Origin: Anaerolineae bacterium
GTDB lineage: Bacteria > Chloroflexota > Anaerolineae > Caldilineales > Caldilineaceae
NCBI GenBank assembly: GCA_030432295.1
Contig: JAUIHI010000002.1
Coordinates: forward strand, 310,001 to 374,000
DNA: 64,000 nt
Direction of reading: 5' to 3'
A program made the translations under genes and the position numbers. This document shows, piece after piece, positions 21,175 through 26,154 of this stretch. The first letter of the stretch is position 1, and each line of letters starts with the position of its first letter. Under the pieces are notes generated by a model. The model did not search any database and was not told the DNA's origin. It saw only the letters and a list, made by a program, of their open reading frames with translations.

Positions 21175-22155
21175 CTACAACTCCTTATCGAACGCAACCT
21201 CCGCAGGAATCTCCACAAAACCGAGCATTTTGTTGATGCCCAGCATCGGATTGTTCTCTTCGTTGTCCGTTCGGATGGCCGTGCCCCCCTGCTGGATGGC
21301 AAACTCGATGGCCCGCAGTTTCATCGCCAACGCGATCCCCTTGCGTCGATGGCTGCGCATCACACCGGTCAGCCAGGTGTTGATACGCTGGGGCATGGCC
21401 GGGTTCTTGGCCAGCATACTCACCCCCACATATTCGCCTGTCAGCCCATTGATATCCAGGGCCGGGTCGATAGCCAAAAACCAGCCCTCCGGCCAGAAGT
21501 TGGGGTTCTCATACCCTTTAATGTACTCCTCGTATGGCTCCTTCACAGGCGGATCGATCTGGGGAATGTCCTGATCGATCTCCCAGAACATCTCATAGAG
21601 CTTTTCCATCCAGCGGGGATCCCTGTCACGCACTTCGGCCAGGGGAACAATTTTTACCCCTTCCCTGGCCACCCGCTCCTGCGCTCCGTTGAAACGACTG
21701 AAGTCGAAGTTGGTGATGTCCAACTCGGAGATCGAAAAGCGCATTTTAGGAACAAAGCCCTGGGATTTCAGCCACGCCACCCGATGGGTGCGATCTTCTC
21801 GAATATCTGTGGACAGAATCTTCGGCTCTCGATCCATCACACTTTCCAGCACAAAGTCATAGACACTCTGGTGCAGGTCACTTTGCTCTTCAACCGATGG
21901 CAGGGCCGAGTAATAGTAGACGAATTTGCCCGGCGCGTTGGCCCAGAAGGGTTCCATATAGGCCCCTTCCCCAATCATCTCCCCGTTGGCATCGGCCACA
22001 AAGCGCTGGCGCAATTTGTCCGCGGGCCACCGGCTGTCGTGAAAACGCAAATTGGAAAGGTTCGATAGCTCATCGGGCCACGCTTTGTTGTGTATCTCCA
22101 CCAGCGCGGCATACTCTTCATCGGTCATCGGATTGTACGGTCGTAGGGTATACAT
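21175..22155 (-). CDS. tandem-GNAT acetyltransferase (third of operon)
   Basis: A 326-residue protein of two GNAT-like halves, the size and layout of the mycothiol-synthase-like double GNATs. The C-terminal half carries the acetyl-CoA pyrophosphate loop MRSHRRKGIALAMKLRA and TDNEENNPMLGINKMLGF; the N-terminal half looks degenerate. It is closely similar to the next gene upstream, with long stretches such as ELDITNFDFSRFNGAQERVA shared exactly, so this is a recent duplication. It acetylates an unknown small molecule or protein. It is the last gene of the attenuator-controlled operon. Confidence 0.85.
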   Translation of the reverse strand: MYTLRPYNPMTDEEYAALVEIHNKAWPDELSNLSNLRFHDSRWPADKLRQRFVADANGEMIGEGAYMEPFWANAPGKFVYYYSALPSVEEQSDLHQSVYDFVLESVMDREPKILSTDIREDRTHRVAWLKSQGFVPKMRFSISELDITNFDFSRFNGAQERVAREGVKIVPLAEVRDRDPRWMEKLYEMFWEIDQDIPQIDPPVKEPYEEYIKGYENPNFWPEGWFLAIDPALDINGLTGEYVGVSMLAKNPAMPQRINTWLTGVMRSHRRKGIALAMKLRAIEFAIQQGGTAIRTDNEENNPMLGINKMLGFVEIPAEVAFDKEL

Positions 22156-22238: not shown

Positions 22239-23219
22239 CTACAATTCCTTCTCATAGTTCACCCCCGCGGGAATCTCCACAAAGCCCAGGACTTTGTTAA
22301 TCCCCAGCATCGGATTGTTCTCCTCATTTTCCGTGCGGATGGCCGTGCCGCCCTGCTGGATGGCGAACTCGACGGCCCGCAGTTTCATGGCCAGGGCAAT
22401 GCCTTTGCGCCGATGGCTGCGCACCACACCGGTCAGCCAGGTTTGGATGCGCTGGGGCAGCGCCTGATTCTTGCCCAGCATACTCACCCCCACATACGCG
22501 CCGACGCCATCTTCGCTGGCAGCAGAAGGATCAAGCGCCATCTGCCAGCCCTCCGGCCAGAAGCCGGGATCGTCAAAGCCCTTCACGAATTCCTCGAACG
22601 GCTCCCGTTTAGGCGGATCGACCTGGGGCACATCCTGCTCGATCTCCCAGAGCATATCGTAGAGCTTCTCCAGCCAGCGGGGGTCTTTCTCCCGCAGTTC
22701 GGCCAGGGTGAGAAGCTGTACCCCTTCCGAAGCCACCCGTTCCTGCGCGCCGTTGAAACGGCTGAAGTCAAAGTTCGTGATGTCCAGTTCGGACTCGGCA
22801 AAGCGCATCTTGGGGACAAAACCATTGGCTTCCAGCCACGCCACCCGATGGCTGCGATCTTCCCGCGTGCCCGTAGAAAGGCGGGCGGGCTGCTGCTCGG
22901 CCAGATTCCCCAGCACATACTCATAGACGAGTGTGTGGACCGCTGGTCGCCCCTCAAATTCGGGCAAGACAGAATAGCCATAGAAGTATTTTCCTGGCGC
23001 ATTGGCCCAAAAGGGTTCACAATAGACACCCTCTGCGACAAAGCGGTCGCCGTTCTCGACCACAAAACGCTGGAAGAGCTTATCCGTCTGCGCGCGTTGA
23101 TCGTTGAAACGCCTTGTCGCGACGGAAGTTGGCTCATCAGGCGTAGCCGCGTTGTTGACATCTACCAATGCCTGGTACTCGGCATCGGTTTTGGGTTGAA
23201 TGGGTCGAATTGTGAGCAT
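22239..23219 (-). CDS. tandem-GNAT acetyltransferase (second of operon)
   Basis: A 326-residue paralogue of the flanking acetyltransferases. The C-terminal catalytic half has VRSHRRKGIALAMKLRA and TENEENNPMLGINKVLGF. It starts 5 bp after the stop of the first GNAT gene, indicating one transcript, and is followed by an 83-bp gap to the third. The conserved block FWPEGW in the middle marks the start of the second GNAT half. The substrate is unknown. Three close copies in tandem suggest gene dosage or divergent substrate ranges. Confidence 0.85.
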   Translation of the reverse strand: MLTIRPIQPKTDAEYQALVDVNNAATPDEPTSVATRRFNDQRAQTDKLFQRFVVENGDRFVAEGVYCEPFWANAPGKYFYGYSVLPEFEGRPAVHTLVYEYVLGNLAEQQPARLSTGTREDRSHRVAWLEANGFVPKMRFAESELDITNFDFSRFNGAQERVASEGVQLLTLAELREKDPRWLEKLYDMLWEIEQDVPQVDPPKREPFEEFVKGFDDPGFWPEGWQMALDPSAASEDGVGAYVGVSMLGKNQALPQRIQTWLTGVVRSHRRKGIALAMKLRAVEFAIQQGGTAIRTENEENNPMLGINKVLGFVEIPAGVNYEKEL

Positions 23220-23224
23220 TGAGA

Positions 23225-24196
23225 TTATCTCTTTCTGTCAATTGTCTTGTGATAGTCTGACCAGGCAGGCAGTGGCTGAAAACCCAATCGCAGATTGATC
23301 TGGTACATTGGATTCTTTTCTTCGTTGCCCGTTTCAATGGTCTCGACTCCAGATTCTTTGGCAAACGCGATGGCTTTCAGCTTCAACGCCATGGCGATTT
23401 TGCGCCGCCGGTGACTGCGTCGGGTACAGGTGAAGCCAGTCTCCATATGGCCTGGCCGGGCCAAATCCCGTTCCAGGTTGCTCAGCCCCACATATTCATC
23501 TCCATCAACAGCAATGAAATGTCCTTCGGGCAGAAAGTTCGGCCCATCAAAGATGCGTTTGACATACTCCTCAAAGGGAAGCTGTGTGATCGGCTCAGGC
23601 GATGGCTCATCCTGGGAGCCAGCCCAGTCCAGATCGTAGAGCTTGCGTTGCCACGCCGGGTCCCGCTTTATCAGTTCGTCCAATGCACAGATTTCAATCC
23701 CGCCAGACTCCACCCCTTCGACGAGACCGGCATAGGGTGCAAAGTCGAAATCATTCACATGCAAGCGGGAACGGGGATAGCGCATCACCGACACAAAGCC
23801 CCGATCCGTGAAAAAGCGCACCTGATCGCCCTTATCCTCCCGGGCATTGGCCGTCAGCAGCACAGGAGCCGGTTCTCGCCGGTGGAGAGCGTCCACCAGC
23901 ACGTCGTACATCTGCGCCCGGTTCTGCTCACTCTCGAATGCCCCGTGGAGGTCAATATCCACCTGATATTTGCCTGGGCGATAGGACCAAGTGCTCTCCA
24001 TCGCGCTGCCCACCCCCACGATCCGCTCCCCTGCCCAGCCCAAAACCCGGCGATAATAGCGATCGGGCGAGCGGTTGGCGTCCCGGTGTTTCACTGCGGC
24101 CAGGCTTGTTGGCTCATCCGGCCACGCGCTGTTGACCACCTCCACAAACCTATGGTAATTCTCCTCAGACGGTGTAAATTCATCGATTCGTAACAT
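23225..24196 (-). CDS. tandem-GNAT acetyltransferase (first of operon)
   Basis: A 323-residue double-GNAT protein, the most divergent of the three. The acetyl-CoA loop reads CTRRSHRRRKIAMALKLKA and the C-terminus ETGNEEKNPMYQINLRLGF. ATG 24196 is chosen because GGAG lies 9 nt upstream and the product then starts like its paralogues (MLRI/MLTI/MYTL); the frame is open upstream through the terminator hairpin to 24322, which is unlikely to be translated as one protein. An intrinsic terminator ends only 15 bp before the start codon. Expression must therefore read through it. Confidence 0.85.
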   Translation of the reverse strand: MLRIDEFTPSEENYHRFVEVVNSAWPDEPTSLAAVKHRDANRSPDRYYRRVLGWAGERIVGVGSAMESTWSYRPGKYQVDIDLHGAFESEQNRAQMYDVLVDALHRREPAPVLLTANAREDKGDQVRFFTDRGFVSVMRYPRSRLHVNDFDFAPYAGLVEGVESGGIEICALDELIKRDPAWQRKLYDLDWAGSQDEPSPEPITQLPFEEYVKRIFDGPNFLPEGHFIAVDGDEYVGLSNLERDLARPGHMETGFTCTRRSHRRRKIAMALKLKAIAFAKESGVETIETGNEEKNPMYQINLRLGFQPLPAWSDYHKTIDRKR

Positions 24197-24210
24197 TTTT
24201 CTCATCTCCA

Positions 24211-24251
24211 GCAAAACAAAAAAGGCCACAGGCGCAGTTGCGCCCGTGGCC
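24211..24251 (-). terminator. intrinsic terminator in the leader of the GNAT operon (attenuator)
   Basis: On the minus strand a 12-bp GC-rich stem with one mismatch (24240-24251 pairs with 24224-24235, 4-nt loop) is followed directly by TTTTTTGTTTT. It lies between the leader-peptide stop and the first GNAT start, which is the position of an attenuator. Its 5' arm contains CGGGCGC, the exact complement of GCGCCCG inside the leader reading frame (24294-24300). Confidence 0.85.
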
Positions 24252-24275
24252 AAAAATCTCAGCAGGTCGGTGGGA

Positions 24276-24341
24276 TCAGCCGATGGCTGAATCCGGGCGC
24301 GAAAAAAGAGGGCGGATACCAAAGAAAGAAATACGAAGCAT
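24276..24341 (-). CDS. 21-residue leader peptide of the GNAT operon
   Basis: ATG 24341 has a perfect AAGGAGG ribosome binding site 5 nt upstream, which is better than most genes here. The peptide begins MLRISFFGIRPLF, continues SRPDSAIG, and stops at TGA 24276. It lies between a consensus promoter and an intrinsic terminator. Codons 14-16 (S-R-P) contain the antiterminator segment GCGCCCG. A ribosome that stalls in the first dozen codons would leave this segment free to block the terminator. A ribosome that runs to the stop codon would cover it and allow termination. The stalling signal (an amino acid or an antibiotic) is unknown. Confidence 0.75.
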   Translation of the reverse strand: MLRISFFGIRPLFSRPDSAIG

Positions 24342-24390
24342 CAGGACCTCCTTTCGTGCGCTACAGATAATTGTGATTTGGCTGACAGCC

Positions 24391-24419
24391 AGTGTACAAC
24401 GAGCCAGTGGGTTTGTCAA
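24391..24419 (-). promoter_or_regulatory. sigma-A promoter of the GNAT operon
   Basis: On the minus strand, -35 TTGACA (24419-24414), a 17-bp spacer and -10 TACACT (24396-24391) are visible. Transcription would start near 24384, about 43 nt upstream of the leader-peptide ATG. The -35 box lies 17 bp from the end of the neighbouring insertion sequence. Confidence 0.78.
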
Positions 24420-24426
24420 TCCCCAA

Positions 24427-24435
24427 ATGGATATT
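24427..24435. repeat. target-site duplication, left copy
   Basis: The 9-bp sequence ATGGATATT abuts the left terminal repeat of the insertion sequence. The right flank has ATGGATGTT (8 of 9 identical), so one point mutation has occurred since insertion. Confidence 0.65.
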
Positions 24436-24444
24436 GGGTGAGCG

Positions 24445-25734
24445 TTATAGTTTCCCGGGAGGAGAAGAGAAGCGGGTGCGACCGACGGTGGAGCGACGCC
24501 AGGGATGATCGGGAGCGGGACGACGATGTGGGGTTGGGGTGGGAAGAGAAGATGTCACGGGAGGAGGAGGTGGCGGAGAAGAAGAAGGAGGAGAAATAGG
24601 CAAGGGCACAGGGGTGGAAATCACTGGCTGAGACAGAAGTGGAGGGCAGGAGGCAGCGGTGTGTTGGAGACGGCATTGGAGGCGTTTTTGGCGGGCTTGC
24701 CTGCGCAAGCGAGACTCAATGCGAGGCCAGTCCTGCTCCCAACGGCGATTACAGACGAGGTTACGCAAAGCCAGCATGGGGTCAACGTGGGGACGAGCCC
24801 AATGCATCCCAGCCCCCTTCAAACGAGCTTCGACCACGACTTTGTTGGCACTTTCCACGGCCCCACTGCCGATGGGAAATCCTTGCTCTATAAAGAGAGG
24901 GTATTGCATCTGTGCCCGGCGTTTTTCCAGATAGGTCAGGGCTTCGGGCAAGTTAAGCGCCTGGGCATCAGGATGAGCCTTGACCAAACGGTTCAATTCA
25001 ACCAGGAGTTGGTCAGGCCCGCTATGTTTGAGTTGGTGTAGTTGCTTTTCCAGCCAGGCCGCCAGTTCGGCGGAATTTGCGCCGAATGTAGCCTGCCCAA
25101 TCTTGCTGATATACTCTGTCGCATGGGCAAAGTCCAGAATACGCAGGGCATCGGGTCGATGATAGTCGGTGAACCCTTGCAACCAGGCGGCTCCATCCTG
25201 GACTGCGCCCACCTTGCCAGCGTTCTCTATCCCGCGTCGCTGGGTCTCCACCAGGGCCAGGCGGTCAAAGTTACTCGCCTCAGCCAGTCGGGAAAAATAG
25301 GTGTGGTTCTGGCTATGCACCACCCACTCCTTCGTTTTGGCATCCCACACTTTCTCTCCCACCTCCCCGATCACCACTGTCTTCACTTCTGCCCACTCCC
25401 CATGCAGCAGGGGCACAAATGCTCCATCCGCACTCAGTAACGCTTTGGCTGACCCGACGGGGGGGGCTGGCATCTCTTCCTCCAACCTTTCCACCTCTTC
25501 ATTTTGCTCGCTCACATAGGCTTCCCCCGCTACCAGACTGTTCTGCCTGACGGCAAACTCACTCACTTCTGCCCCTGTGAACACTTTCAACATCTCCGCC
25601 GCTTCTTCAAATGGCATCCATGCCCCCAAACGCACCAGATTCTCAAATAGAATCGGTGTTACCTGCACCGGCAATAGCCCTAATTCCTCATCCAGGGGGA
25701 AAAAACCCTCCTTTACAGGTCGGGCACACCCCAT
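24445..25734 (-). CDS. ISKra4-family transposase, C-terminal part (second frame)
   Basis: A 429-codon frame holding the catalytic DDE region. Recognisable parts are LLSADGAFVPLLHGEWAEVK (first catalytic Asp), a central RILDFAHATEY block (second Asp), and GFPIGSGAVESANKVVVEARLKG with the catalytic Glu, followed by WARPHVDPMLALRN. The last 70 residues are Pro/Ser-rich and look like translated terminal sequence. Its apparent ATG at 25734 is in the middle of a zinc-finger region, so translation is expected to enter from the upstream frame by a +1 shift near 25700. Confidence 0.82.
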   Translation of the reverse strand: MGCARPVKEGFFPLDEELGLLPVQVTPILFENLVRLGAWMPFEEAAEMLKVFTGAEVSEFAVRQNSLVAGEAYVSEQNEEVERLEEEMPAPPVGSAKALLSADGAFVPLLHGEWAEVKTVVIGEVGEKVWDAKTKEWVVHSQNHTYFSRLAEASNFDRLALVETQRRGIENAGKVGAVQDGAAWLQGFTDYHRPDALRILDFAHATEYISKIGQATFGANSAELAAWLEKQLHQLKHSGPDQLLVELNRLVKAHPDAQALNLPEALTYLEKRRAQMQYPLFIEQGFPIGSGAVESANKVVVEARLKGAGMHWARPHVDPMLALRNLVCNRRWEQDWPRIESRLRRQARQKRLQCRLQHTAASCPPLLSQPVISTPVPLPISPPSSSPPPPPPVTSSLPTPTPHRRPAPDHPWRRSTVGRTRFSSPPGKL

Positions 25735-26053
25735 ATCTTCTTTCCAGAATCAACTCTTCTCCTCCTTGCGTCTGCAATCGCCGCTTTTTCTTCCCTCCTT
25801 CTGCTTTTAGTTTTGTCCCACACTCCGGGCAAGCTGGACCTTCCCCTTTCTCCATTTCTTTCCAATCCCCCGCTTGGCTTTCTACTGCCAAATCAGTCAC
25901 CATCCCCGCCCGCACTCGTACCCAACGCCTATCCATCTCTTTTTCTATCTCGCGTAGCGTGGCTTTCGGATTCTCTTTCCTCCATCCTCCCATCCCTTCC
26001 GCCACTTCCTCTAACATCCCACTCCATTTTTCTATCTGCTCTACCCTTTCCAT
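25688..26053 (-). CDS. ISKra4-family transposase, N-terminal part (first frame)
   Basis: A 121-codon frame encoding the N-terminal region: a helical segment, then a zinc ribbon CPECGTKL...YGVCPTC. It ends at TGA 25688, just after GGG-TTT-TTT-CCC-CCT. A +1 slip on the C run would join the second frame and restore a continuous zinc ribbon plus DDE domain. Either this is programmed frameshifting, as reported for some ISKra4-group elements, or the copy is inactivated. Confidence 0.78.
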   Translation of the reverse strand: MERVEQIEKWSGMLEEVAEGMGGWRKENPKATLREIEKEMDRRWVRVRAGMVTDLAVESQAGDWKEMEKGEGPACPECGTKLKAEGGKKKRRLQTQGGEELILERRYGVCPTCKGGFFPPG

Positions 26054-26145
26054 CTCTTTCTTCTCCCTCTTTTCTGCCCACTTCCTTCACGCTTTCTCCT
26101 ATCTTACTCCACTCCCCCCTCCTCGGGAAAACTTCTCGCTCACCC

Positions 26146-26154
26146 ATGGATGTT
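26146..26154. repeat. target-site duplication, right copy
   Basis: ATGGATGTT directly follows the right terminal repeat and matches the left flank at 8 of 9 positions. Confidence 0.65.

Follow-up and report, generated by a model that had tools for sequence, protein, structure and literature searches.

A predicted ribosome-mediated transcription attenuator upstream of three double-GNAT genes and its relatives across a class of Chloroflexota

What controls a set of acetyltransferase genes that is preceded, within 224 bp, by a promoter, a short open reading frame (ORF) and an intrinsic terminator? The window (the whole stretch of 64,000 nucleotides that was analysed) contains such an arrangement, which the original prediction read as a leader-peptide attenuator of tandem acetyltransferase genes. 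The promoter, the 21-codon ORF with its Shine–Dalgarno (SD) sequence, the terminator and the GNAT start are all present on the minus strand as described. The genes are double GNATs as proposed, but there are three of them and not two. The whole element runs 5' to 3' from promoter through SD, leader ORF, stop-codon hairpin and terminator to the three double-GNAT genes, with the following features.

24391–24419, minus strand: promoter, TTGACA (24419–24414), 17 nt, TACACT (24396–24391); 10/12 matches
24347–24355, minus strand: SD of the leader ORF, GAAAGGAGG, invariant across five genomes
24276–24341, minus strand: leader ORF of 21 codons, MLRISFFGIRPLFSRPDSAIG followed by a stop codon
24297–24361, minus strand: hairpin 1:2 of the untranslated RNA, GCGC 24361–24358 with GCGC 24300–24297
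24294–24300, minus strand: antiterminator strand GCGCCCG, ORF nt 42–48, codons 14–16
24273–24294, minus strand: stop-codon hairpin, GGAUUCAGCC-AUC-GGCUGAUCC, which lies directly beside the antiterminator helix in the fold for a stalled ribosome
24224–24251, minus strand: intrinsic terminator hairpin, 12 bp, loop of 4
24246–24240, minus strand: antiterminator target, the CGGGCGC core of the terminator 5' arm
24218–24223, minus strand: U-tract of the terminator
23225–24196, minus strand: double-GNAT gene 1, start 24196 chosen from the ortholog alignment
22239–23219, minus strand: double-GNAT gene 2
21175–22155, minus strand: double-GNAT gene 3

An insertion sequence lies at 24435–26146 of the window, bounded by 23-nt imperfect terminal inverted repeats (24435–24457 and 26124–26146) and containing two transposase-like ORFs on the minus strand. 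It separates the leader promoter, which is intact, from a pyridoxamine-oxidase-like gene that apparently adjoins the leader in the relatives L004 and L005.

Two features of leader-peptide transcription attenuators, an overlapping leader ORF with an SD and a terminator before the first structural gene, are thus found at the locus. The predicted complementarity is also there, as the GCGCCCG of leader codons 14–16 can pair without a mismatch with CGGGCGC of the terminator 5' arm. In the predicted fold of hairpin 1:2 the SD and start codon are paired with the region of codons 8–13, so that SD, start codon and antiterminator strand are hidden; the SD and start-codon helices are retained in the consensus fold. 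Folding of the whole leader is far above that of shuffled sequences (z = −5.6). Considered at this locus alone, the complementarity between leader and terminator is borderline in comparison with shuffles (P = 0.05), a value that would suit a plain terminator insulating an unregulated operon behind a short ORF that arose by chance. The case for an attenuator therefore rests on comparison with relatives. Neither the stretch of the window that was scanned nor 14 related loci matched any Rfam family (T-box, riboswitches, leaders) at the gathering score of that family. Weak matches to Spot_42 and suhB, below threshold, were taken as chance.

Folding of the leader RNA with the alternative pairings, as the original prediction had proposed, gave both an off and an on fold depending on the position of the ribosome. 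In the free leader RNA hairpin 1:2 ties up the GCGC of the antiterminator strand and the terminator forms. When the RNA covered by a ribosome with codon 3, 6 or 9 in the P-site is masked, and the 5' arm of the terminator has just been made, GCGCCC pairs with GGGCGC, and the antiterminator lies directly beside the stop-codon hairpin (−26.3 kcal/mol at P-site codons 6 and 9). No antiterminator is obtained by masked folding with codon 12 in the P-site or once the ribosome has reached the stop codon. In silico, then, it is the position of the ribosome that decides the outcome, and the claim that early stalling releases an antiterminator is borne out. Counted codon by codon, antiterminator pairing stays level as far as codon 9 in five leaders of the same genus and as far as about codon 11–13 in leaders of aspartyl-tRNA synthetase (AspRS) genes (see below), which is where their Asn codons lie; the later values of this count mix in other pairings. 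Once the RNA is complete, the terminator exceeds the antiterminator in stability; the choice between the two must therefore be kinetic and fall during transcription, as in other attenuators.

The mechanism proposed from these folds has three states. Without translation, hairpin 1:2 would hide the SD and the antiterminator strand, the terminator would form and the operon would be off. A ribosome that reaches the stop codon would cover GCGCCCG, again allowing the terminator to form. If a ribosome instead stalled no further along than about codon 9 (P-site), it would have opened hairpin 1:2 and left GCGCCCG free to pair with the CGGGCGC of the emerging terminator arm, beside the stop-codon hairpin, and with this antiterminator in place RNA polymerase would read into the three double-GNAT genes. 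We infer that such stalling takes place in vivo, the likely signal being an antibiotic that targets the ribosome or some comparable block of translation.

Relatives were searched for with the first GNAT and the DNA upstream of each match was read; the whole element was found in four more genomes, making five in total. In public records these loci belong to MAGs of Caldilineaceae and of Litorilinea aerophila, Chloroflexota. Whether homologous operons keep the leader ORF and the complementarity had been set beforehand as the test on which the original prediction could fail, and both are kept in all five. The ORF is exactly 21 codons long in each genome, with an identical SD, and the antiterminator strand reads GCGCCCG, or GCGCCCA in L003. 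The promoter hexamers are likewise present in 5/5 leaders (TTGACA with TACACT or TAGACT, 16–18 nt apart), as are the stop-codon hairpin and the terminator. Leader identity is 0.75–0.85, in comparison with 0.43–0.60 at the fourfold-degenerate sites of the first GNAT, and the alignment decays upstream of the promoter, where the sequence is unconserved. Leader and first GNAT can be separated, as genome G005 has another paralog (L010) behind the leader. This conservation, as read from the aligned sequences, is the decisive support for the element being real.

The same architecture precedes double GNATs with other sequences. In another genus (L012, L015, L016, L017, L018 and L020) the leader ORF of the double GNAT carries CGCGTCC, which pairs with GGACGCG in a terminator of other sequence; the leader peptides differ (e.g. 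MSTKLFTKTAVFASFLGEIPT and MRIELSVETGVHASFVRSSAPCY) and the paired element is constant at ORF nt 34–36. A second copy lies upstream of a double GNAT on contig C49 of the window's own genome, with the peptide MAKLTWTHFAAPDGILPVFGAPAR and the pairing GGCGCGCCCGC/GTGGGTGCGCT. A scan of 2.40 Mb of this genome (36%) found 173 terminators, and its two GNAT leaders proved to be the candidates that combine a good SD with the top antiterminator scores. Two more genera have the double GNAT further down an operon that is headed by an attenuator. The order in L069 and L099 is leader, ABC-F, GNAT, and a Caldilineaceae genome holds a complete operon (L116:2331–7297) of leader, RIO kinase, RsgA, double GNAT and MFS transporter. 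A bacterial RIO kinase is thereby seen inside a putative drug-response operon. A comparison of matched with mismatched pairings gave P = 0.014, but the terminator chosen for L040 and L057 was the second, downstream hairpin and so this value is not relied on.

Genomes were also searched with a pattern that consists of the antiterminator strand and the terminator core only and demands no ORF, the reversed pattern serving as control. Among 46 genomes of the family there were 5 matches and no control matches. With a T requirement added, 396 genomes of the class gave 27 matches and 2 matches to the reversed pattern. In the phylum outside the class matches were about as frequent as controls, and the motif is therefore not claimed there. 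At 22 of the 27 class sites a leader ORF with an ATG and an SD of at least 5 bases runs across the antiterminator and ends before the terminator, where shuffling gives an expectation of 0.17. The pairing also continues outward past the fixed core (e.g. AAGATGCGCCTG with CGGGTGCATCTT in L321). Averaged over 20 representatives, this extension amounts to 3.9 pairs; random re-pairing of leaders with terminators gives 2.55, and none of 20,000 permutations reached the observed value (P = 5e-5, approximate as the representatives are related to differing degrees). This extension is covariation between the antiterminator and terminator strands that is independent of the search. The pairing of leader with terminator foreseen at the locus is thus retained with different sequences elsewhere in the family and class, and an antiterminator that is mutually exclusive with the terminator has been maintained in evolution.

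A plain terminator with a chance ORF accounts poorly for these results. It offers no reason for a promoter directly upstream of the leader, for an ORF of fixed length with its SD in five genomes, for leader ORFs at most of the class sites or for covariation past the searched pattern, and we regard it as very improbable. The attenuator reading of the original prediction is supported overall, and the class-wide set, which formed no part of it, places the locus in a wider context. The element is probably a ribosome-mediated transcription attenuator, likely sensing a drug or translation block, and one member of a class family with a shared core and a varying leader peptide.

The genes downstream of the 27 class sites, assigned by scanning part of the proteins and for the rest by clear similarity to scanned ones, are RsgA at 7 sites, AspRS at 5, a double GNAT or an acetyltransferase of that size at 5, RIO kinase at 3, ABC-F at 2 and another ABC ATPase at 1. 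A smaller GNAT follows in L330–L332 and probably in L329, the L329 gene being unconfirmed. A leader search independent of the pattern found a terminator and a leader at 3/30 RsgA homologs of the class, two of them already known and one of the three without a convincing antiterminator, from which RsgA appears to be attenuated in some lineages only. Across the class the core thus looks to precede genes that protect ribosomes, help to assemble them or transport drugs, and we infer from its company (ABC-F, MFS, ABC ATPase, RsgA and RIO kinase) a response to ribosome-targeting antibiotics.

The AspRS genes provide a natural control. Their five leaders (L310–L314, e.g. MLFGILQANQNQQNNNPGVRLWEDQS) contain 4–5 Asn codons at positions 5–16, just before the antiterminator, and Asn makes up 22/123 residues in them in comparison with 8/352 in the other leaders of the family (Fisher P = 2e-8, the five leaders being related). 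These look like a use of the shared core with a codon-specific sensor, which supports the mechanism. The attenuated AspRS is of the bacterial type. AsnRS and further AspRS-like genes are present in 5/5 of these genomes, so the attenuated AspRS looks like an extra copy, and the idea that it is needed for Asn-tRNA because AsnRS is missing is ruled out. A response of an AspRS gene to Asn codons would be puzzling with AsnRS present.

These AspRS leaders also bear on whether the window's own leader works like those of the trp and his operons, with the ribosome stalling for lack of one charged tRNA (Phe, Leu, Ile or Arg) and the GNATs having a metabolic role. The RNA logic would be the same, relatives in the class appear to use the core in this manner with their Asn-rich leaders, and the window's leader has three Phe codons. 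It does not, however, contain a run of codons for an amino acid of its operon. The five genus leaders keep no run of any residue, MLRSIFPGIRLLHARPEPAIG and MLRLSFVGICPLFARPELAIG have far less Phe, and no stall run is seen in the other leaders before GNAT, RsgA, RIO or ABC-F genes; double GNATs, moreover, are not known as amino-acid biosynthesis genes. A trp/his type is accordingly quite improbable here. Amino-acid shortage is disfavoured by the lack of any residue that is enriched or kept as a run, in contrast to the Asn-rich AspRS leaders; the sequence of the locus alone does not separate shortage from antibiotic. As the same core is used with an Asn run at AspRS, leaders that have no such run, including that in the window, are argued to sense something broader.

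A special case of the drug-sensing attenuator would be a macrolide-dependent arrest like that of ErmCL, in which the N-terminal MLRxSFFGI stalls at Ile9 with the drug in the exit tunnel. We take the SFFGI of the leader to resemble the SIFVI of ErmCL, as a lead only. Codon 9 is an invariant Ile in the genus leaders, and with the P-site any further along the full antiterminator is no longer free; ErmCL stalls at Ile9 (PMC12121999). The GGTATC that encodes Gly8-Ile9 also pairs with the start-codon region, however, and its conservation may reflect a constraint on the RNA, so the likeness to ErmCL stays a lead. The peptides are also wholly different between groups of the same architecture, and no GNAT is known to inactivate macrolides. 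Such an arrest seems unlikely, if less so than a trp/his type, and the broader translation-block reading is preferred.

The predicted model of the GNAT (pLDDT 92) has two GNAT domains in one chain, with the tandem-GNAT fold of MAB_4324c, ORF14 and MshD. Its best fold match is 7q3a (MAB_4324c; TM 0.75 over 345 columns), and 2wpw and MshD 1ozp also match, with only 13–17% sequence identity to the solved tandem-GNAT members. MAB_4324c is a direct target of WhiB7 and acetylates amikacin only mildly (PMC10727445). The output of the operon is likely an N-acetyltransferase response to the drug or translation block.

The kind of mechanism is already known from the trp leader and from BmrB (PMC4191407). 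Leaders of the trp/his type share the three-state logic of no, full and stalled translation, with a 1:2 hairpin, an antiterminator and a terminator, but the present leader is without a regulatory codon run and does not precede biosynthetic genes; within the family it is the AspRS leaders that have such a run (Asn). BmrB-bmrCD of Bacillus subtilis similarly has a leader that is translated and in which antiterminator and terminator compete, and its ribosome-mediated transcription attenuation controls a drug-transport operon that is induced by ribosome-targeting antibiotics (PMC4191407). It differs in its unrelated sequence, in its 53-codon leader with the terminator inside and in being a single locus, whereas the present core recurs over the class before unrelated genes. 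The ToiL upstream ORF of E. coli topAI-yjhQP is also short and senses several classes of ribosome-targeting antibiotic by stalling, but it unmasks a ribosome-binding site and prevents Rho termination, and no intrinsic terminator is used (PMC12121999). The ermC leader has a short peptide, a drug-dependent stall at codon 9 (Ile) and alternative hairpins, but regulates a methyltransferase by translational and not transcriptional attenuation.

In its genes the set resembles the WhiB7/WblC regulon of Actinobacteria, which includes the tandem GNAT MAB_4324c, ABC-F, MFS and methyltransferases (PMC10727445; PMC7157823) and, in Streptomyces, an RsgA paralog and a Trp-tRNA synthetase paralog (PMC7157823). 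There one transcription factor activates all the genes, whereas here each operon has its own cis attenuator. There is perhaps an even chance that the class has a translation-stress response with no central regulator, as a cis counterpart of the WhiB7 regulon, in which the core precedes GNATs, RsgA, RIO kinase, ABC-F and the extra AspRS and exchangeable leader peptides set the stall that is sensed.

No report of Chloroflexota attenuators of such a kind was found among the open-access papers searched; what is new is the class-wide common core with exchangeable leader peptides, together with its gene set. Ribosome-mediated attenuators have mostly been described operon by operon, and here one core is found across many families before unrelated genes. 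The class consists mostly of uncultured Chloroflexota, for which a translation-stress regulon is thus predicted from sequence alone. Double GNATs, RsgA and the bacterial RIO kinase become candidate drug-response or ribosome-maintenance proteins, and with the Asn-rich AspRS leaders as a built-in control the mechanism is directly testable.

Several further leaders were noted. In L283, L326 and L329–L332 the leaders of GNAT and ABC-F genes have a common C-terminal stretch, approximately GGDVxxPC(R/T)xAPV, right at the antiterminator, which may reflect conservation of either the peptide or the RNA. An SD, leader ORF and terminator also precede genes for SAM methyltransferases and MsbA-like ABC exporters in L050 and L053 and in L055, L057 and L067, with two conserved peptide types (..RLIAPPF.. 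and M..NxLxRxQG..). Their antiterminator pairing is weak or uncertain, and they are counted not as full members but as possible ones only. Another leader family (MRQHQMQYQLQSKS.. and MTQPQMPCQLQVLS..) occurs before a protein of 278–288 aa in L078:17585 and L039, with the pairing AATACACCT/AGGTGTATT in L039. The genes that follow in L039 and L078 look acetyltransferase-like by eye, an assignment that was not adopted, the L039 protein having no Pfam match. Finally, in L040, L057, L069 and L072 a second terminator-type hairpin follows the first attenuator terminator, possibly forming a two-step attenuator.
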